Shown here: positions 1,249 through 9,952 of the stretch, piece after piece | Position numbering within the stretch: position 1 is the stretch's first letter | How the letters are laid out: each line of letters starts with the position of its first letter | Origin: an uncultured Alphaproteobacteria bacterium | GTDB lineage: Bacteria > Pseudomonadota > Alphaproteobacteria > UBA2966 | Direction: 5' to 3' | Assembly: GCA_958295725.1 (NCBI GenBank) | Contig: OY282368.1 | Location: 1,198,501-1,262,500 of the forward strand | Length of the DNA stretch: 64,000 nucleotides | The notes under the pieces: model-generated | Databases searched by the model: none | Told to the model about the DNA's origin: nothing | The model's input: the letters and a program-made list of their open reading frames with translations, nothing else | Translations under genes and position numbers: made by a program

Positions 1249-1968
1249 TCACCGCGCGTTCCGGCCTTCTCGGCCGGCGAATGGGGCGGCCCGGCCCGCG
1301 ATCCGGCACGGCCTCCAGTTCCTGGTCCAGTGCTCGTCGGTCTGCACGTGTCCGAGGCGGACGCTCTTGCAGACGTTGTCCGGGAACTCCGCCGCCGGAA
1401 ACCCTCGCGCCAGCCGCATCACGACGCCCTCCCGCTCGCCCCCGAGCGCGGACGGCTCGCCGTGAGCGTGTTCGATAAACCCGCGTATCTCCGCGACCGA
1501 CCCGAAACGGCCCCTGAACAGGACCGGGACGACCGGGATCTCCCGCGGCCGCGCGTACGCCTCGACCTCGGCGAAGGCGGCGAACGCGCCGTCGCCGTCG
1601 CGCAGCGCGAACGCGTGGAACGTCTCGCGCTCCGCGACGGGGTCGTACTCGATGCTGTGCACGCCGTAGATGTCCTCGCCGTACAGCCAGACGCCGGGCT
1701 CGGTCGCTTTCCAGGCATGGTGCTTTTTCACCATCGCCATCCACTTCGCGTCGGAAGGGACCGATACGCTGCGCGCGTAGACCTCGCCGGCGTGCAGGAG
1801 CGTGTTGCCGCCGTCCAGCTTCTCGGTCGCCACCACGTCCTCGCCGACGAAGCGGTCCGGATTCGCGTGCACATCGTCGTCCCGGCCGATGGCCGGGGAC
1901 CACGGCCAGTACGGAGTGCCGGGGTACTTCGCGTTCCAGGGCGGGCCGGAACCGTTCCTCGCGGTCAT
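1249..1968 (-). CDS. ATP-dependent RNA ligase family protein (Rnl2-like nucleotidyltransferase)
   Basis: A 239-aa protein with the ordered motifs of covalent nucleotidyltransferase RNA ligases. Motif I is EKLDGGN with the adenylated lysine at K50. Motif III is YGEDIYG (96-102), followed by HSIEYD. A motif IIIa-like HAFALRD lies near 118-124. Motif IV is EGVVMR (180-185), and motif V has the lysine of KSVR (K201), followed by HVQTDEHW. Such enzymes seal RNA 3'-OH/5'-phosphate ends. The ATG at 1968 was chosen because it overlaps the TGA of the upstream PIN gene by 4 nt, which points to translational coupling; longer in-frame extensions have no family-like sequence. It is the last gene of a three-gene operon with the PIN nuclease and AAA ATPase. 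A role in RNA repair or in counteracting the PIN enzyme is inference. Confidence 0.85.
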   Translation of the reverse strand: MTARNGSGPPWNAKYPGTPYWPWSPAIGRDDDVHANPDRFVGEDVVATEKLDGGNTLLHAGEVYARSVSVPSDAKWMAMVKKHHAWKATEPGVWLYGEDIYGVHSIEYDPVAERETFHAFALRDGDGAFAAFAEVEAYARPREIPVVPVLFRGRFGSVAEIRGFIEHAHGEPSALGGEREGVVMRLARGFPAAEFPDNVCKSVRLGHVQTDEHWTRNWRPCRIAGRAAPFAGREGRNAR

Positions 1969-2450
1969 CGCTCGCGTCGGGATTGTCTCGCGTGTTGCGG
2001 ACAGAGTTGCTCCACCTCGACGTCCAGGCTGTCCATCAGATCCTTGCGCTCGTCCCAATCGCGGTCGGTCGCGTTCAGAACCACCGCTTTCGCGACTACC
2101 GCGACTGCCAGGAACTTCCGGTCCGAGCGGTCGAAGGCGTTCTCCGGCAGCTCTTCGAAGCCTCGCCGGTCGTCGTCGGACTCCGTAATCTCGGTCCTGC
2201 GGACGTACTCGCACCGATACTGGTTGTCGAACACGTGCTTGAGGAACGCGTCGCCGACTCCTGGTCCTCCCGAAAAATTCAGGCGGCCCTGGTATTCCTC
2301 CAGAATGAGACCCTTGTCGTCGACGGCGACTACTTCCCGTTCAAGAGACTCCAGCTTCTCCACACATACCAATTGACATTCTTCGTCCGCGTGAGTTTCG
2401 CGACCGTTGGCGGCTATCGCGACGTTGGTATCGACGACGAACACTGTCAT
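1965..2450 (-). CDS. PIN-domain nuclease-like protein
   Basis: 161 aa. The N-terminus, FVVDTNVAIAANG, is the classic first PIN strand with acidic D7. Further acidic positions are E51/E52 in the region LILEEYQ, D110 in DRSDRKFLAVA, and D129/D131 in ATDRDWD, matching the usual four-acid PIN active site. PIN domains are metal-dependent RNases, and in VapC-type toxins they cut tRNA or rRNA. The start at 2450 overlaps the stop of the ATPase gene (ATGA overlap), and its own stop overlaps the RNA ligase start in the same way. All three should therefore be made from one transcript in coupled fashion. There is no VapB-like antitoxin next to it; instead the partner is an ATPase, so it may be the effector of an ATPase-gated system (inference). 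Confidence 0.8.
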   Translation of the reverse strand: MTVFVVDTNVAIAANGRETHADEECQLVCVEKLESLEREVVAVDDKGLILEEYQGRLNFSGGPGVGDAFLKHVFDNQYRCEYVRRTEITESDDDRRGFEELPENAFDRSDRKFLAVAVVAKAVVLNATDRDWDERKDLMDSLDVEVEQLCPQHARQSRRER

Positions 2451-3835
2451 CCGGATTGCTCCGTTTTTCTTTTCGATATTTTTCTTTTCAATGAAGCCTT
2501 CACGATCGCCGCGACCTCGCCCATCTCGTCGCCGAAGAACTCGTCCGGCCAGTTCTCGATCTCGCCCCATTCGTTCAAGCGCAGGTCCTCAACGTGCGCC
2601 CGGCCCCGTTGCGAGGAAACGAAGTACAGCCTCATATCCTCGGAGGGTGCCTCCTGTTCGGCGACCCGGCGTTGCAGGCGCCGCAGCAAGTGCTCGCTGT
2701 GGCTCTCCACGACGATCTGGACGTTTCGCACCTTGGCGACGTTCAGCATGACGTCGGCCAGACCGCTTTGCACGGCGGGATGGAGATGGATCTCCGGCTG
2801 CTCCATCAGTACCGTAGAGCCTTCCGGAACGTAATAGAGCAGGACCAGCGCGGGCAGAACCTGGGATACGCCGAATCCGACGTCGGTCAGCGCCGTCGGC
2901 GCGCTCGACGAGGAGGTCTTGACCATCGCCCGGTACAGGTTCGTTCCCTTGGCGATCTCTTCGAGACGGAAGTCTTCGATCAACCCCAGCTCGTTCAACC
3001 AGTGGGCGATGACTCTCTGGAACGCTATCCCCCGCACTCCCCGTGCCCGGGGCTTCAACCTCCTTTTCTCATTGTCGCGAGTGGCGGCAAGTATCGCGTC
3101 CATCGTACGCTCGCCGCGCTGGCCAACGTCCTCCGGGCTGGCTCCGGCCCAGTGGTACTCCCGCTTCGGGTGCTCGCGCAACGGCCCGAGGTAGTAGAGC
3201 GAGTCCATCAGCCTCTCGTAAGCCAGCTCGAAATCGCCGAGGAAGTCCGAGTTCTGGTAGTAAGTTCTTGCCTGGTTGGGGAACAGGTATGTCTTGACCG
3301 GATGCGGAAGCGGCCAGGGACGGCCCTGTTTGTGCTGGAATTCAAATTTCTCGCCGTCGGCTACCAACTTGAAATCGCCCTTCTTCTTCGATTTGGGCTT
3401 CGGTTGCAGCCCGAACTTTACGCCGTCGAACCGGTATTCCAACCGGTACGGCCAAGGACGTTTCTCTTTCCAGCCGACCTTGCACTTCGTGCTCAGTTTG
3501 TCTCCGCTGAAGAGCAGTTCTTCGGGGTTCATCGGATCCTGGATCTCCAGCGGCTTGGGCAGCGTCCAGTCGAGGGTCCAGCGTATTCGCGCGTCCTCGT
3601 CACGGCCGTGGACGACATCGGCGAACGTTCCCAGGTTCACCAAGTCTCCCGGTCTGCCGAAATCGAGAACCAGCCCCCGGTCCGTGGCGTTCCGGGTCTG
3701 CTTGAGCAACAGGAGGAACTGGAGGAGGCTGCTCTTGCCGGCGCTGTTGGGCCCGAAGAATCCGGTCACCTTGCCGAAGGTCAGGTCGGCTTCCCGCCAC
3801 GCCTTGAAATTCTCGATCTTCAGACTCTTCAGCAT
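2447..3835 (-). CDS. AAA/ABC-type ATPase, DUF3696 family (OLD/AbiEii-like fold)
   Basis: 462 aa. Walker A is GPNSAGKSS (28-36). An ABC-signature-like segment DVGFGVSQVLPA and Walker B VLMEQPEIHLHP follow, with a switch histidine in VVESHSEHLL. The last ~60 residues (HVEDLRLNEWGEIENWP, FFGDE) match the C-terminal DUF3696 module. Proteins of this kind resemble SMC/Rad50-type ATPases and often pair with nucleases in phage-defence operons. The ATG at 3835 is preceded by GGGAG at good spacing; an upstream in-frame start (3910) adds 25 residues before the conserved MLKSLKIENFK start and is less likely. First gene of the ATPase-PIN-ligase operon. The sensed trigger is unknown. Confidence 0.88.
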   Translation of the reverse strand: MLKSLKIENFKAWREADLTFGKVTGFFGPNSAGKSSLLQFLLLLKQTRNATDRGLVLDFGRPGDLVNLGTFADVVHGRDEDARIRWTLDWTLPKPLEIQDPMNPEELLFSGDKLSTKCKVGWKEKRPWPYRLEYRFDGVKFGLQPKPKSKKKGDFKLVADGEKFEFQHKQGRPWPLPHPVKTYLFPNQARTYYQNSDFLGDFELAYERLMDSLYYLGPLREHPKREYHWAGASPEDVGQRGERTMDAILAATRDNEKRRLKPRARGVRGIAFQRVIAHWLNELGLIEDFRLEEIAKGTNLYRAMVKTSSSSAPTALTDVGFGVSQVLPALVLLYYVPEGSTVLMEQPEIHLHPAVQSGLADVMLNVAKVRNVQIVVESHSEHLLRRLQRRVAEQEAPSEDMRLYFVSSQRGRAHVEDLRLNEWGEIENWPDEFFGDEMGEVAAIVKASLKRKISKRKTEQSG

Positions 3836-3930: not shown

Positions 3931-3996
3931 CGGCCGGCTCCTCCCCCTCGACGGAGAGACCGCCTGGAGGGGGGGCGGACTTCAGGTCCCGGCGGC
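3931..3996. repeat. Direct repeat, right copy, flanking the ATPase-PIN-ligase operon
   Basis: Same orientation as the 1180-1243 copy, sharing 18-bp and 27-bp identical blocks. It lies between the start of the ATPase gene and the end of the terminase-like gene. The last five codons and stop of that downstream gene are written inside this repeat. Confidence 0.8.
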
Positions 3997-4728
3997 ATCC
4001 GCGCCAGGGCGGGGCGGGATCGACCCGCCGCGCCGCCGCCGCCGCCCGCGGCGATTGTTTCTACGCGCCTTCTTCCCAAGGGGCTTCCCACGGGTTCCAC
4101 GAGGCCGGCAGATGTCCGCCTCTTCCTCTGCTTCCTCTTCCTCTTCGTCCTCTATCTCTTCCTCCTCCTCCATCTCTTCCTCTTCGTCCTCTATCTCCTC
4201 CATCTCCTCCTCTGCCGCCGCTTCCTCCGCCTTCGCCTCCATCTCCGCCTCTATTTCCGCCTCTATTTCCGCCTTCATCGCCGCTTCCTCGTCGAGCCGG
4301 CGCATCACCGCCTCGCGGAGCCTTCGGGTTCTCGATGCCGGATCGTCGGGTTCCGGCTCCGGCTCCGGCGGTCGGTAGTTGTCGCGGTAGCGCGCCGGGC
4401 GGTGGGCCTTGAGCAGGAACATGGCGAGGGCGTCGGAGTAGTGGCGCGTCGTCCCCACCTGTTCTCCCTTGTAGTAGACGGGTTTCTCTACCCCTTCGAA
4501 GGCGCGGCGGTGGAGTTCGGCCTCCAGGAGGTCGATGCCGTTGTCGAGGGCGTCGTCCCACTCGCGGGCGAAGTCGGGGTCGGCGTCGCGCCAGTCGTAT
4601 GCGGTGCGTCTGGGGATGCCGGCGTCGCGGCAGGCGCGGGCGACGTTGACGGTATCGGCGAGGGCGTGGAGGAAGGCGGTTTTGCGGCCTGGGCGTATGT
4701 CGGCGGCGGCGGCGGTGTTTCCGTGCAT
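3982..4728 (-). CDS. Terminase-small-subunit-like HTH protein with acidic Glu-rich C-terminal tail
   Basis: 248 aa. The first ~110 residues look like a small-terminase or HTH_Tnp-type DNA-binding domain: an HTH segment with VARACRDAGIPRRTAYDWR, then a helical part (LHRRAFEGVEKPVYYKGEQV) and a conserved LKAHRPARYRDNY. After a Pro/Glu linker comes a long low-complexity run of E/A/D/I/M residues (about 145-215), then a very basic Arg/Gly tail. The ATG at 4728 has GGAG upstream at 10 nt. The C-terminal codons (DAAGT and stop) lie in the right flanking repeat, suggesting the gene end was rebuilt by a repeat-mediated rearrangement. No large terminase or other phage gene is visible, so it may be a solitary remnant or a domesticated regulator. 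Confidence 0.65.
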   Translation of the reverse strand: MHGNTAAAADIRPGRKTAFLHALADTVNVARACRDAGIPRRTAYDWRDADPDFAREWDDALDNGIDLLEAELHRRAFEGVEKPVYYKGEQVGTTRHYSDALAMFLLKAHRPARYRDNYRPPEPEPEPDDPASRTRRLREAVMRRLDEEAAMKAEIEAEIEAEMEAKAEEAAAEEEMEEIEDEEEEMEEEEEIEDEEEEEAEEEADICRPRGTRGKPLGKKARRNNRRGRRRRRGGSIPPRPGADAAGT

Positions 4729-4758
4729 GTCGGGGTCTCCTGTTTCCCGTGTAGGAAC

Positions 4759-4787
4759 AATGTGAGAACAGGAGTGTGTCGTGTCAA
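4759..4787 (-). promoter_or_regulatory. Candidate sigma-70-type promoter for the terminase-like gene
   Basis: Read on the minus strand, a perfect TTGACA (4782-4787) is followed after 17 bp by CACATT (4759-4764), a weak -10. It lies 31 bp upstream of the ATG at 4728, in a stretch noticeably richer in A/T than its surroundings. Confidence 0.4.
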
Positions 4788-4850
4788 GAGGAAAATTCCA
4801 AAGTAGAGAAAAAATATCCACGATGCGGTCAAGAACGGGAAAGCGGTTCG

Positions 4851-5334
4851 CACAATCCGCACACCGTCGGGGCACACACTCTCGGGATGCGATTCCCCCT
4901 TCCGGCCTCCCCTTTCGACAGGGGGGAGGAGCGTAACCGTCCCGTCCCGGCGCCGGATCGGGATTGCACAATCCGCACACCGTCGGGCCGCGCACTCTCG
5001 GGACGCGATTCCCCTTCCGGCCTCCCCTTTCGACAGGGGGGAGGAGCGTAACCGTCCCGGCGCGGCGCCGGATCGGAATTGCACAATCCGCACACCGTCG
5101 GACGCGCACTCTCTCGGGACGCGATTCCCCTCCCGGCCTCCCCTTTCGACAGGGGGGAGGAGCGTAACCGTCCCGGCGCGACACCGGATCGGGATTGCAC
5201 AATCCGCACACCGTCGGGGCACACTCTCTCGGGATGCGATTCCCCCTTCCGGCCTCCCCTTTCGACAGGGGGGAGGAGCATAACCGTCCCGGTGCGGCGC
5301 CGGATCGGAATTGCACAATCCGCACACCGTCGGG
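4851..5334. repeat. Tandem array of ~116-bp hairpin-containing repeats (4 full units plus a partial fifth)
   Basis: Units begin with CACAATCCGCACACCGTCGG at 4851, 4967, 5082, 5198 and 5314, giving periods of 116, 115, 116 and 116 bp. Each full unit contains a strong stem-loop of the form CCTCCCC-TTTCGACA-GGGGGGAGG, followed by GAGCGTAACCGTCCC and a variable GCGCCGGATCGG segment. Units are very similar but not identical. An inverted partial copy of the leading motif lies at about 5463-5478. No reading frame through the array looks like protein. Unlike CRISPR, the whole unit is conserved, with no unique spacers. Confidence 0.9.
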
Positions 5335-5340
5335 CTATAC

Positions 5341-6653: not shown

Positions 6654-7537
6654 CGATCTCGACGCCGGCCGCGACCTCGGCCCCGAACGGCGCCCGGCGG
6701 CGGCCCGGGTTCCACTTTCCCACCGGCAAGGTCTCGTTCTACGGATTCTGCAGTCTTTCCTACATATTCCTCCTGTCGCCGCTGGTCGTCGTCGTCGGCG
6801 CTTCCCTGCACCGGGGAACCCGGTACACGGTCGTCAAGTTCCCGCCGGAGGACCTCTCCCTCTACTGGTACACGCAGATCCCGGACGCCCACTGGGAAGC
6901 GCTGACGCTGAGCTTCGGCCTGGCGTTCATGGCCTCCATGCTGGCCTGCGTCGTCGGCATCCCCGCGGCGCTGGGCCTCGTGCGGAGCAACATCCCCCTC
7001 AAGGGCCTGTTCTCGTCGATCTTCCGGGCGCCGCTGCAGATCCCGTCCATCGTCACCGGCGTCGCCTTCCTGCAGATGTACTACCTGTTCGGCGACCTCA
7101 CGGGCCTCTACGTGAACGGGACCTTCGCGGGCCTGCTGCTGGGACACCTGTTCGTCGGCATCCCCTACGTCGTGGGGACCGTCGGCGCGGTCCTGCAACG
7201 CTTCGACACGCGCCTCGAGGAGGCGGCGCAGAGCCTCGGGGCGGGCCGCATCACCACGTTCCGCCGCGTCACGCTTCCCGTCATCATGCCGGGCGTGTAC
7301 GCTGGCGGCCTGTACGCCTTCATGGTCTCCTTCGGCGACGTGCCGATCTCGATCTTCCTGTCGGCGCCCGGGTTCGTCACCTTCCCGGTCGAGCTCTTCT
7401 ACGGTATGGAGAACGACTTCAACCCGTCCGTGCTCGCCTCGTCGACGCTCGTCATCCTGTTTTCGCTCGGCCTGCTGCTGCTCATGCAGCGCATCGTCGG
7501 GCTCGAGAACCTGTTGCGTTCCGGCGGCGGCTCGTGA
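6650..7537 (+). CDS. ABC transporter permease, PotC-like
   Basis: 295 aa. A ~25-residue polar N-terminal extension is followed by six predicted membrane segments. The coupling loop LEEAAQSLGAGRITTFRRVTLP carries the expected EAA motif. The start overlaps the stop of the first permease. It partners that protein in the membrane channel; the cluster contains one ATPase (9993-11057) and two candidate periplasmic receptors. Confidence 0.9.
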   Translation: MTISTPAATSAPNGARRRPGFHFPTGKVSFYGFCSLSYIFLLSPLVVVVGASLHRGTRYTVVKFPPEDLSLYWYTQIPDAHWEALTLSFGLAFMASMLACVVGIPAALGLVRSNIPLKGLFSSIFRAPLQIPSIVTGVAFLQMYYLFGDLTGLYVNGTFAGLLLGHLFVGIPYVVGTVGAVLQRFDTRLEEAAQSLGAGRITTFRRVTLPVIMPGVYAGGLYAFMVSFGDVPISIFLSAPGFVTFPVELFYGMENDFNPSVLASSTLVILFSLGLLLLMQRIVGLENLLRSGGGS

Positions 7538-7635
7538 TGTCCGGTCCGCGGCCCCGCCGGCATGCGTCGCGTGACAGGAAGGGCGGTCCTTCCGGGAGCG
7601 CGGAAACAAACCCCCGGTCGGGGAGGAGAGGACAT

Positions 7636-8733
7636 ATGCGCATGAACATGAATCTGTCGAAACTCGCGGTCCTGGCCGTCGCGGCCGGGGCGATGGCGGT
7701 CGCGGCGCCGGGACCGGCCTCGGCCGGCGATCTCGACGGCCAGGAAATCAATGTTTGCACCTGGGGCGGATCCTGGCGCGACGTGCAGCTCGAAACCATC
7801 GTCCAGGGACCCGACGGCCTCGAGGCGCGCGGCGCCAAGGTCGAGTTCGTGACGGGAAGCCCGCAGGACAACATGGCCAAGCTCATCGCGTCGCGCGGCC
7901 GGCCGGTGTGCGACGTCATAGAAGTCCTCGACGCCACCTGGGACGAGATGGTGGAACTGGATTTCGTCGTCGACGAGCTCGACTTCGGCCTGATCCCGAA
8001 CGCCAAGGACACGCTGGCCTACCTGCTCGGGAAGAACCATACCGGGAGCTGGTTCACGCAGGAGGGCATCTGCTATAACGCCGACAAGTTCAAGGAGCAC
8101 GGCATTCCCGTGCCGACGACCTACAAGGACCTGATCCATCCGAAGCTCGAGGGCCTGATCCAGATCCCCGACATCACGTCGGGCGGCGGGCTGGCCAACT
8201 TCTCCGCCATCGTGAAGGCGGCGGGCGGCGACGAGACCAACGTGCAGCCGGGGTTGGATCTCATCAGGGCGATGAAGGTGCGGAAGTTCTGGAAGCGCGG
8301 CAGCGAAGGCGTCACCCTGCTCGAGAACGGCGACATCTGGGCGCTCGTGGCCTACGTCGGCTGGTGCATGCGCGGGCACAAGGCCGGACAGACCTATCTC
8401 AAGTTCGTGCACCCGTACGTCGACGAGAACCACACCGGCGTGCAAAAGTACGGATACCTGTCGATCGTGAAGTCGATCGACAGGAAGAACTGGGAGGCCG
8501 CGCACGCGTACATCAACGGCTTCCTGTCCGAGGAGACCCAGTACCAGATGTCCACGCAGTCGGGCACCACGCCGGTCAACGTCAAGGTGTGGGCGCGCCT
8601 GGAGAGCGATCCCGTGCTCAAGGATATGGCGATGTTCGATCCCGAGAAGATCGAGATGCACTATCGCGCCGACTACAAGATGGCCGACCGGTCGCTCTGG
8701 CTCGATCAGTGGAACCGCAACGTCACCCAATAG
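7636..8733 (+). CDS. Periplasmic solute-binding protein, PotD/family-1 type (copy 1)
   Basis: 365 aa. It begins with a clear Sec signal peptide (MRMNMNLSKLAVLAVAAGAM, cleavage after PASA). The mature protein starts GDLDGQEINVCTWGGSW, typical of spermidine/putrescine-type receptors. The ATG at 7636 has GGAGGAGAG upstream; the in-frame start ~100 bp earlier lacks a signal peptide. It delivers substrate to the permease pair. A close paralogue follows directly. Confidence 0.9.
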   Translation: MRMNMNLSKLAVLAVAAGAMAVAAPGPASAGDLDGQEINVCTWGGSWRDVQLETIVQGPDGLEARGAKVEFVTGSPQDNMAKLIASRGRPVCDVIEVLDATWDEMVELDFVVDELDFGLIPNAKDTLAYLLGKNHTGSWFTQEGICYNADKFKEHGIPVPTTYKDLIHPKLEGLIQIPDITSGGGLANFSAIVKAAGGDETNVQPGLDLIRAMKVRKFWKRGSEGVTLLENGDIWALVAYVGWCMRGHKAGQTYLKFVHPYVDENHTGVQKYGYLSIVKSIDRKNWEAAHAYINGFLSEETQYQMSTQSGTTPVNVKVWARLESDPVLKDMAMFDPEKIEMHYRADYKMADRSLWLDQWNRNVTQ

Positions 8734-8863: not shown

Positions 8864-9952
8864 ATGCATGGCTTATTGAAACTATCGGCCCTGGCCGTAG
8901 CCGCCGGCGCGCTCGCGATGACGGCGTCCGGTCCCGCGACCGCCGGCGACCTCGACGGTCAGGACATCAAGGTCTGCACGTGGGGCGGGTCGTGGCGCGA
9001 CATTCAGCGCGACAACATCGTCACCAATCCGGGCGGCCTGGAGGAACGGGGCGCCACGGTCACGTATGTGACCGGAAGCCCGCAGGACAACATGGCCAAG
9101 CTCATCGCGGCGCGCGGTCAGCCCGTCTGCGACGTCATCGAGATCCTCGACGCCACCTGGGACCAGATGGTCGAGCTCGACTTCGTCGTCGACGAACTGG
9201 ACTTCGACCTGCTCCCGAACGCCAAACACCTGGCGGACTGGCAGATCGGCAAGAACTTCACCGGTTCGTGGTTCACGCAGGAGGGCATCTGCTACAACTC
9301 CGACAAGTTCAAGGAAAACGGCATTCCCGAGCCGACGACCTACAAGGACCTGATCCATCCGAAGCTCGAGGGCCTGATCCAGATCCCCGACATCACCTCG
9401 GGCGGCGGTCTGGCCAACTTCGGCGGCATCGTGAAGGCCGCCGGCGGCGACGAGAACAACGTCAAGCCGGGTCTCGATCTCATCAACGCGATGAACGTCA
9501 AGAAGTTCTGGAAGCGCGGCAGCGAGGGCGTCACCCTGCTCGAGAACGGGGACATCTGGGCGCTCATCTCGCACGTGGGATGGTGCATGCGCGGCCACAA
9601 GGCCGGACAGACCTATCTCAAGTTCGCGCACCCGATCATCGACGACATGCATGTCGGCGTGAACAAGTTCGGGTTCCTCAGCATCGTCAAGAACAGCCCC
9701 ATGGAGCTCCGGCCCGCCGCGCACGCCTACATCAACGGGTATCTCGACGAGGAGACCCAGTTCCAGATGTCCGCCCGCGCCGGCACGATCGCGGTGAACG
9801 TCATGGCGCAGGCGCGTCTGGCCGAGGATCCGGTGCTCAAGGAGATGGCGGTACTCGACGCGGAAGGCATCGCCAAGGAATATCGCGTCAAGTACAAGGG
9901 CATCGACATCACGACCTGGAACGACCAGTGGAACCGCGCCGTCACCCAGTAA
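8864..9952 (+). CDS. Periplasmic solute-binding protein, PotD/family-1 type (copy 2)
   Basis: 362 aa, with a signal peptide ending GPATA and mature start GDLDGQDIKVCTWGGSW. It is collinear with and clearly duplicated from the previous gene; for example the region LIHPKLEGLIQIPDITSGGG is identical in both. GGAGGAGG lies upstream of the ATG. Differences concentrate in several ligand-facing stretches (VAYVGWC versus ISHVGWC, CT-terminal lobe), so the two copies may bind different but related ligands. Confidence 0.9.
   Translation: MHGLLKLSALAVAAGALAMTASGPATAGDLDGQDIKVCTWGGSWRDIQRDNIVTNPGGLEERGATVTYVTGSPQDNMAKLIAARGQPVCDVIEILDATWDQMVELDFVVDELDFDLLPNAKHLADWQIGKNFTGSWFTQEGICYNSDKFKENGIPEPTTYKDLIHPKLEGLIQIPDITSGGGLANFGGIVKAAGGDENNVKPGLDLINAMNVKKFWKRGSEGVTLLENGDIWALISHVGWCMRGHKAGQTYLKFAHPIIDDMHVGVNKFGFLSIVKNSPMELRPAAHAYINGYLDEETQFQMSARAGTIAVNVMAQARLAEDPVLKEMAVLDAEGIAKEYRVKYKGIDITTWNDQWNRAVTQ

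Follow-up and report, generated by a model that had tools for sequence, protein, structure and literature searches.

The operon described here lies near the start of a 64,000-nucleotide stretch of contig OY282368.1 (the window), from an uncultured bacterium of the Alphaproteobacteria, and it encodes an ATPase, a PIN-fold nuclease and a predicted ATP-dependent RNA ligase. Judged by sequence, the ATPase-PIN pair is the already catalogued candidate defence system HEC-03, and the three-gene operon is a horizontally mobile form of it. Since the ATPase-PIN part is known, it is the ligase alone that makes the set new. By analogy with other gated nucleases and with RNA-cutting toxins, we put at about 0.5 the probability that the ATPase gates an RNase whose cut is resealed by the operon's own ligase. 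A broader proposal is held more tentatively, at somewhat short of even confidence: that this is reversible RNA-cutting immunity with its own repair arm, in which a jumbo-phage-type ligase was captured, ligases were placed behind a defence nuclease in at least two recruitments from two lineages, and activation could be reversed rather than lead to cell death.

The ATPase-PIN pair matches HEC-03

The first gene (positions 3835-2447, minus strand) encodes an ATPase of 462 residues, in which we read a Walker A motif (GPNSAGKSS) and a Walker B region (LMEQPEIHLHP), the motif names being our own reading. The protein matches the Pfam families AAA_15 and AAA_21 and, at its C-terminus, DUF3696, all above cut-off, and residues 1-456 match the PADLOC model HEC-03B (PDLC04148) with an E value of 5.1e-206. 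The second gene (2450-1965, minus strand) encodes a protein of 161 residues, of which residues 4-156 match HEC-03A (PDLC04147) with an E value of 1.2e-66. Both PADLOC proteins are therefore present nearly full length and in order, where it is an assumption that PADLOC requires the ATPase to precede PIN. The ATPase gene stands directly upstream of PIN on the same strand in the window and in 80/80 loci from genome contigs, a set chosen from 253 confirmed loci as the 80 whose PIN is most similar to that of the window, which favours the window's clade. The match of the ATPase to AriA in PADLOC is far weaker (E 2.7e-26) than that to HEC-03B, and its profile search also finds an OLD-family protein and PtuA. 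OLD-family, PtuA and AriA ATPases gate nucleases. Identity with PARIS was considered and rejected, as no AriB lies beside the ATPase and the partner gene matches HEC-03A only.

The PIN protein reaches PF01850 in Pfam below threshold (14.2 bits, with a cut-off of 23.6), its other Pfam match at E up to 1 is a spurious-looking V-SNARE, and its sequence profile finds nothing meaningful in the PDB. Its AlphaFold2 model (pLDDT 93) has the VapC/PIN fold. The best Foldseek match has an E value of 6e-3 (none is below 0.001) at a probability of 1.00, and a second fold comparison aligns VapC21 (5sv2) over 118 residues with a Z score of 10.3 and an rmsd of 2.6; the top fold matches are mostly VapC toxins. 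VapC toxins are RNases. The likeness to VapBC consists in this toxin fold, and the neighbours of PIN are the ATPase gene before it and the ligase gene after it; small VapB-type antitoxin reading frames were not searched for. The acidic residues D7, E52, D107, D110 and D129 are kept in 39/39 ligase-bearing loci, the window's included, counted after duplicates had been taken out by hand; the 39 are not all independent, as near-copies remain (for example L051/L052/L143, L061/L062 and L065/L068).

A reference in PMC12988326 traces the HECs to Payne et al. 2024 (bioRxiv 10.1101/2024.01.29.577857), and the paper reports antiviral activity for several of them, including HEC-06, in a passage that does not name HEC-03. 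HEC-03 is listed as a defence subtype in an excerpt of PMC13356809, and the string 'HEC-03' also occurs in PMC12542007, by its title an osteoarthritis study.

A predicted RNA ligase follows the nuclease

The third gene (1968-1249, minus strand) encodes a protein of 239 residues whose sole Pfam match at E up to 1 is RNA_ligase (PF09414; 61.9 bits, cut-off 27), and PHROGs also assign it as an RNA ligase. Its structural model (pLDDT 86) matches archaeal Rnl3, Naegleria Rnl, T4 Rnl2 and a fungal tRNA ligase (E about 1e-6 to 1e-4). An earlier note on this DNA, made from the sequence without database searches, had called the protein Rnl2-like. That it is an RNA ligase holds up, but the label is loose, since by profile and fold the nearest solved relatives are archaeal Rnl3 and Naegleria Rnl, followed by T4 Rnl2. 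The nearest ligase sequences seen outside HEC-03 loci are those of jumbo phages, at up to 54% identity. NCBIfam has no match for either the window's ligase or its PIN, and the PADLOC models do not match the window's ligase, or four others from clade B (defined below), at E up to 1.

The K-x-D-G of motif I and the conserved residues of motifs III, IV and V are invariant in the ligase alignment. In what we take to be the standard numbering, motif I is K50-x-D-G, motif III G97-E98, motif IV E180-G181 and motif V K201. K50 is kept in 38/38 rows that reach it, the exception being a copy interrupted by an insertion sequence (IS), and G97, E98, E180, G181 and K201 are kept in 39/39 ligase-bearing loci. 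The protein has the residues that mark the ATP-dependent RNA ligase superfamily, whose activity it is predicted to share. The intact acidic residues of PIN and motif residues of the ligase, which the earlier note had seen in the window, are thus shared by the ligase-bearing loci, and D7 and K50 stand where that note placed them.

Two ATGA stop/start overlaps, at 2450-2447 between ATPase and PIN and at 1968-1965 between PIN and ligase, join the three genes on the minus strand; genes and overlaps lie as first described, to which the strand is now added. A 4-base overlap of PIN and ligase (ATGA or GTGA) is possible in 14/30 of the loci listed. Ligase and PIN share a strand in 39/39 ligase-bearing loci, and the ligase lies directly behind PIN, with no gene found between them, in all but the IS-interrupted copy; no PIN-ligase fusion was seen among the 39.

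Distribution of the ligase among HEC-03 loci

HEC-03A was found in 13 genomes of a phylum sample (383 genomes), with the ligase behind PIN in 10/13, and in 11 genomes of a class sample (385 genomes), with the ligase in 5/11, three of the five being from one genus. When the samples are pooled, with two genomes common to both, the ligase is present in 14/22 distinct HEC-03A genomes. It follows PIN in 19 of the best 80 genome-contig loci. Twelve plasmid records contain PIN and nine of these the ligase (9/12), one of the nine being interrupted by an IS256-like element. The ligase-bearing loci span seven phyla: Acidobacteriota, Pseudomonadota, Thermodesulfobacteriota, Latescibacterota, Verrucomicrobiota, Myxococcota and Actinomycetota (a Rhodococcus plasmid). 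The recurrence of the three-gene order in other genomes, on which the earlier proposal of a new system depended, is therefore borne out across phyla.

In the class sample, the ligase profile matches 10/385 genomes: 5/11 with HEC-03A and 5/374 others (Fisher p 1.6e-6). The same association is found when genera are counted (3/9 and 5/268; p 0.0012). Chance adjacency was ruled out by the 39 loci, their two separate clades, and the Fisher tests together with the Mantel tests given below. Because many HEC-03 loci lack it, the ligase appears to be an add-on to a working two-gene system.

A shared third gene that might replace the ligase was looked for close behind PIN on the same strand in 69 ligase-free loci, and this alternative was set aside: the only recurrent cases are HmaC in three loci (L091, L093, L126), a type III methyltransferase in two (L071, L072) and two further shared-gene pairs (L097/L103 and L119/L121), one more pair being the same locus twice. 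The HmaC and methyltransferase genes look like parts of a host system in which HEC-03 is embedded. PIN also occurs without a ligase match in three plasmid records of Acinetobacter soli. In one of them (L140), an HNH_2 gene occupies the ligase position and adjoins an N-6 DNA methylase gene; its product is possibly an alternative third component.

Ligases from two lineages

A tree of joined ATPase and PIN sequences was made for the 83 of 93 loci with long enough matches to both proteins. The ligase-bearing loci fall into two separate clades, such that presence of the ligase requires 3 changes on the tree, compared to a mean of 18.8 when shuffled. Clade A has 12 rows, all with the ligase and including the window; clade B has 9 rows with the ligase, along with two from Thiotrichaceae and one from Frankia without it. 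A ligase tree of 65 rows covers 35/39 HEC-03 loci (L052, L062, L068 and L139 were left out), 20/28 phage loci and 10 other ligases. Here 11 clade A rows group together (support 100/100) within a larger set of 20 rows, the other 9 being phage ligases (100/99), and clade B lies across a 100/100 branch from clade A. The hypothesis that all HEC-03 ligases form a single clade is rejected (p-AU 7e-5 for the 65 rows; an earlier 64-row tree agrees), and hence the ligase was recruited at least twice. Some ligases from outside HEC-03 loci fall, with moderate support, within the clade B side of the tree, where losses or exchanges are possible. An orphan ligase (L156, genome G222) lies inside the clade B ligases; neither ATPase nor PIN is present within about 1.5 kb of it, and it is perhaps a remnant.

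Within each clade the distances between ligases track those between their ATPase and PIN partners. For clade A (12 loci), the Mantel correlation is 0.92 for ATPase-ligase and 0.89 for PIN-ligase; for clade B (14 loci), the values are 0.66 and 0.67. In no case did a permutation reach the observed value (0/2000).

Since it is nested among phage ligases, the window's ligase probably derives from a jumbo-phage-type lineage, where the direction from phage to bacterium is unproven, given that the tree is rooted at its midpoint and the phage ligases were found with the window's own ligase. A scan of viral sequences with one clade B ligase matched only that ligase's own contig. An origin of the whole operon as a jumbo-phage or prophage gene cluster was rejected: by tblastn, 0/25 viral ligase loci show the ATPase or PIN, the window is part of a 3.5 Mb contig, and one ligase-bearing relative is on a 5.1 Mb chromosome. 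No relative of PIN was found in IMG/VR by single-sequence search or in phage records; three modules on viral contigs were recovered through an ATPase search.

On one jumbo phage contig (L023; 462 kb), a terminase gene lies near the ligase gene, which is a few kb from genes for nicotinamide phosphoribosyltransferase (NAMPT) and a cytidyltransferase-like protein, as assigned by PHROGs. By eye, L025 and L030 have reading frames similar to the ligase neighbours of L023. This arrangement suggests that jumbo-phage RNA repair is coupled to NAD supply.

Genomic surroundings of the family

Context was read by eye from the lists of reading frames of 15 ligase-bearing loci and of clusters of ligase-free loci. 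The ligase-bearing module lies within a BREX locus in L127, with BrxC ahead of it and PDC-S04 and PDC-M38 genes behind; behind type I restriction and methylase genes and PDC-S02 in L131; behind N6-methylase and HsdR-type genes in L118; and between the integrase and Psu genes of a P4-like satellite contig in L046. This integrase-Psu interval is presumably a defence hotspot of such satellites. The satellite module had no match in E. coli genomes. The defence-type surroundings expected of family members are thus seen in BREX, type I restriction and P4-like satellite loci, and several of the 15 have no obvious defence gene. Ligase-free loci add to this defence context, with HmaC or the type III methyltransferase directly behind PIN in the five loci named above. 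In L127, a PglX-like gene is in two parts that flank the HEC-03-ligase module and the PDC-S04 gene, which looks like an insertion of the module into the BREX gene.

Comparison with known systems

The earlier note knew of no named system with this gene set. For the ATPase-PIN pair that claim fails, the pair being HEC-03 in PADLOC, and for the ligase it stands, as that part is matched by no PADLOC model. Some ligase-free loci adjoin HmaC, which fits the name Hma-embedded; the window differs from them, with no Hma gene among its identified neighbours. A search of the open-licence PMC literature, with subscription papers and preprints outside its scope, found no description of an ATPase-PIN-RNA ligase system, and for DUF3696 the one paper it returned is unrelated by title. 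Passages of the DefensePredictor paper (PMC13092281) describe PIN-domain defence systems, DS-3 and DS-5, and its main text does not contain the word ligase.

The nearest published pairing found is that of HARP, a PIN-type protein-only RNase P, with Rnl3 in archaea and bacteria (PMC12153264). In both cases a gene for a PIN-superfamily nuclease is co-localised with one for an ATP-dependent RNA ligase. However, the Pfam and TIGR families named there are unmatched by the window's PIN and ligase, the gene pair is typically bidirectional, and the parts covered mention neither an ATPase nor a defence context.

The ATPases of PARIS, retron-Ec78 PtuA and OLD/Gabija-type systems are related to the window's by profile. 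Their effectors are TOPRIM or HNH nucleases, and we know of no RNA ligase that is part of these systems. T4 Rnl1 and Rnl2 are phage RNA repair ligases that act against host RNases. The jumbo-phage ligases group with that of the window, which differs in sitting behind a nuclease gene in a tight run of genes. Other bacterial ligases of the same superfamily (L144, L160, L161) are paired with a kinase gene with HD and AAA_33 domains, a partner in which they differ from the window's. Next to the ligases of L160 and L161, neither the PIN nor the ATPase of HEC-03 was found, and the annotated L144 stretch lists neither.

Proposed mechanism and its alternatives

In the mechanism proposed, the ATPase would sense infection or another stress and hold PIN inactive until then. 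Once activated, PIN would cut an RNA needed for translation, which the analogy with VapC suggests could be a tRNA. Cleavage by PIN enzymes generally yields 3'-OH and 5'-phosphate ends, which are the ends joined by ATP-dependent RNA ligases. For this reason, the operon's ligase could rejoin the RNA halves without an end-healing enzyme, and resealing might either limit self-damage from false activation or allow survivors to recover. Many nuclease-based abortive systems are thought of as one-way. If the mechanism is correct, a defence RNase co-transcribed with a ligase that requires no end-healing would provide the cell with its own reset and account for its tolerance of false alarms. With two ligase lineages in the same slot, a functional link of cutter to joiner becomes testable, and the kinship of one lineage with phages suggests an anti-defence enzyme turned into a defence part. 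In PADLOC, HEC-03 could be extended by a third component, which occurs in the share of HEC-03A genomes given above.

The support for cutting and resealing is circumstantial: at least two ligase recruitments, and no end-healing gene beside the module within limited flanks. The HD+AAA_33 kinase gene, whose product is by its domains likely an end-healing enzyme, lies near 7/10 bacterial ligase loci outside HEC-03 and 4/28 phage loci, with both domains confirmed by Pfam in 6/7 of the kinase-positive loci. It was found at 0/39 HEC-03 ligase loci, only 22/39 of which hold at least 2 kb beyond the ligase.

Several observations weigh against the proposed mechanism. RNA as the target of PIN is an analogy only. 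The kinase contrast is weak, in that five of the seven positives are hand-picked plasmid loci and the remaining two (L160, L161) supplied the kinase profile; in the class sample, the kinase is beside only 2/5 non-HEC ligases, again L160 and L161. The ligase is absent from 61/80 genome-contig loci and 8/22 sampled genomes, and in the IS-interrupted copy, on an Aeromonas caviae plasmid, the annotation retains both the ATPase and the PIN gene, which shows that the ligase is a modifier rather than an obligatory antidote. The identified neighbours of the operon in the window, a Rieske oxygenase, an ABC transporter and a terminase-like reading frame, are metabolic or repeat-like and do not form a defence island.

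The same absences, with the one broken copy and the orphan L156, could mean that the ligase is a passenger without a functional tie to HEC-03. This is very improbable, given that a ligase entered the same slot at least twice with its catalytic residues kept, that start-codon overlaps are possible in nearly half of the loci listed, and that ligase distances are correlated with those of its partners. It is rather unlikely that the ligase mends host RNA broken by phage nucleases or by a neighbouring defence system instead of by PIN, and is carried along with HEC-03 since each is of use during infection. The jumbo-phage ligases with which the window's groups are described as ligating endoRNase-targeted RNAs (PMC7824862), and HEC-03-ligase modules do adjoin other defence genes. 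Repair of other damage, however, would not call for the constant placement of the ligase on PIN's strand and, apart from the IS-interrupted copy, directly behind PIN, and it fits less well with the lack of an end-healing kinase in the limited flanks of the HEC-03 ligases.

PIN and the ligase might also be an RNA-processing pair whose active product is a circular, spliced or 5'-adenylated RNA, which is how the authors of the HARP-Rnl3 study read their pairing, with C/D box RNA circularisation among their ideas (PMC12153264). We regard this as unlikely, because the PIN and ligase families differ from HARP and Rnl3 by Pfam and NCBIfam, and because an inducible nuclease accords better with a defence-type ATPase and with the defence contexts. 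Finally, the module could act on DNA, with PIN making nicks and the ligase-fold enzyme sealing them. The best solved-structure matches of the ligase profile include entries named DNA ligase (8uce, 3qwu), and the OLD-family and PtuA matches of the ATPase point the same way. A DNA target is nonetheless improbable: in the fold search the 8uce entries carry the title RNA ligase, both Pfam and PHROGs place the protein among RNA ligases, and the top folds for PIN are mostly VapC toxins.

Other observations

Both same-genus genomes have the flanks of the window's operon without the module, the gap being about 0.5 kb in G002 and about 0.3 kb in G001, compared to about 4.6 kb in the window. The module is therefore either a recent gain or was lost in both relatives. 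Directly upstream of it, at 3971-5335, is a dispersed repeat with internal repeats and a reading frame like the Sf6 terminase small subunit (PF20901), and more copies of this repeat occur elsewhere on the chromosome at 90-95% identity.

RNA ligase genes adjoin HD+AAA_33 kinase genes in L160 and L161, from the window's class, and in L144, L148, L149 and L150; these are probably RNA end-repair gene pairs. On the Deinococcus radiodurans plasmid (L144), a TIGR02452 gene lies between the ligase and kinase genes. Elsewhere in the window, neighbouring genes for similar solute-binding proteins (7534-8733 and 8864-9952) are about 80% identical in DNA, an apparent tandem duplication.

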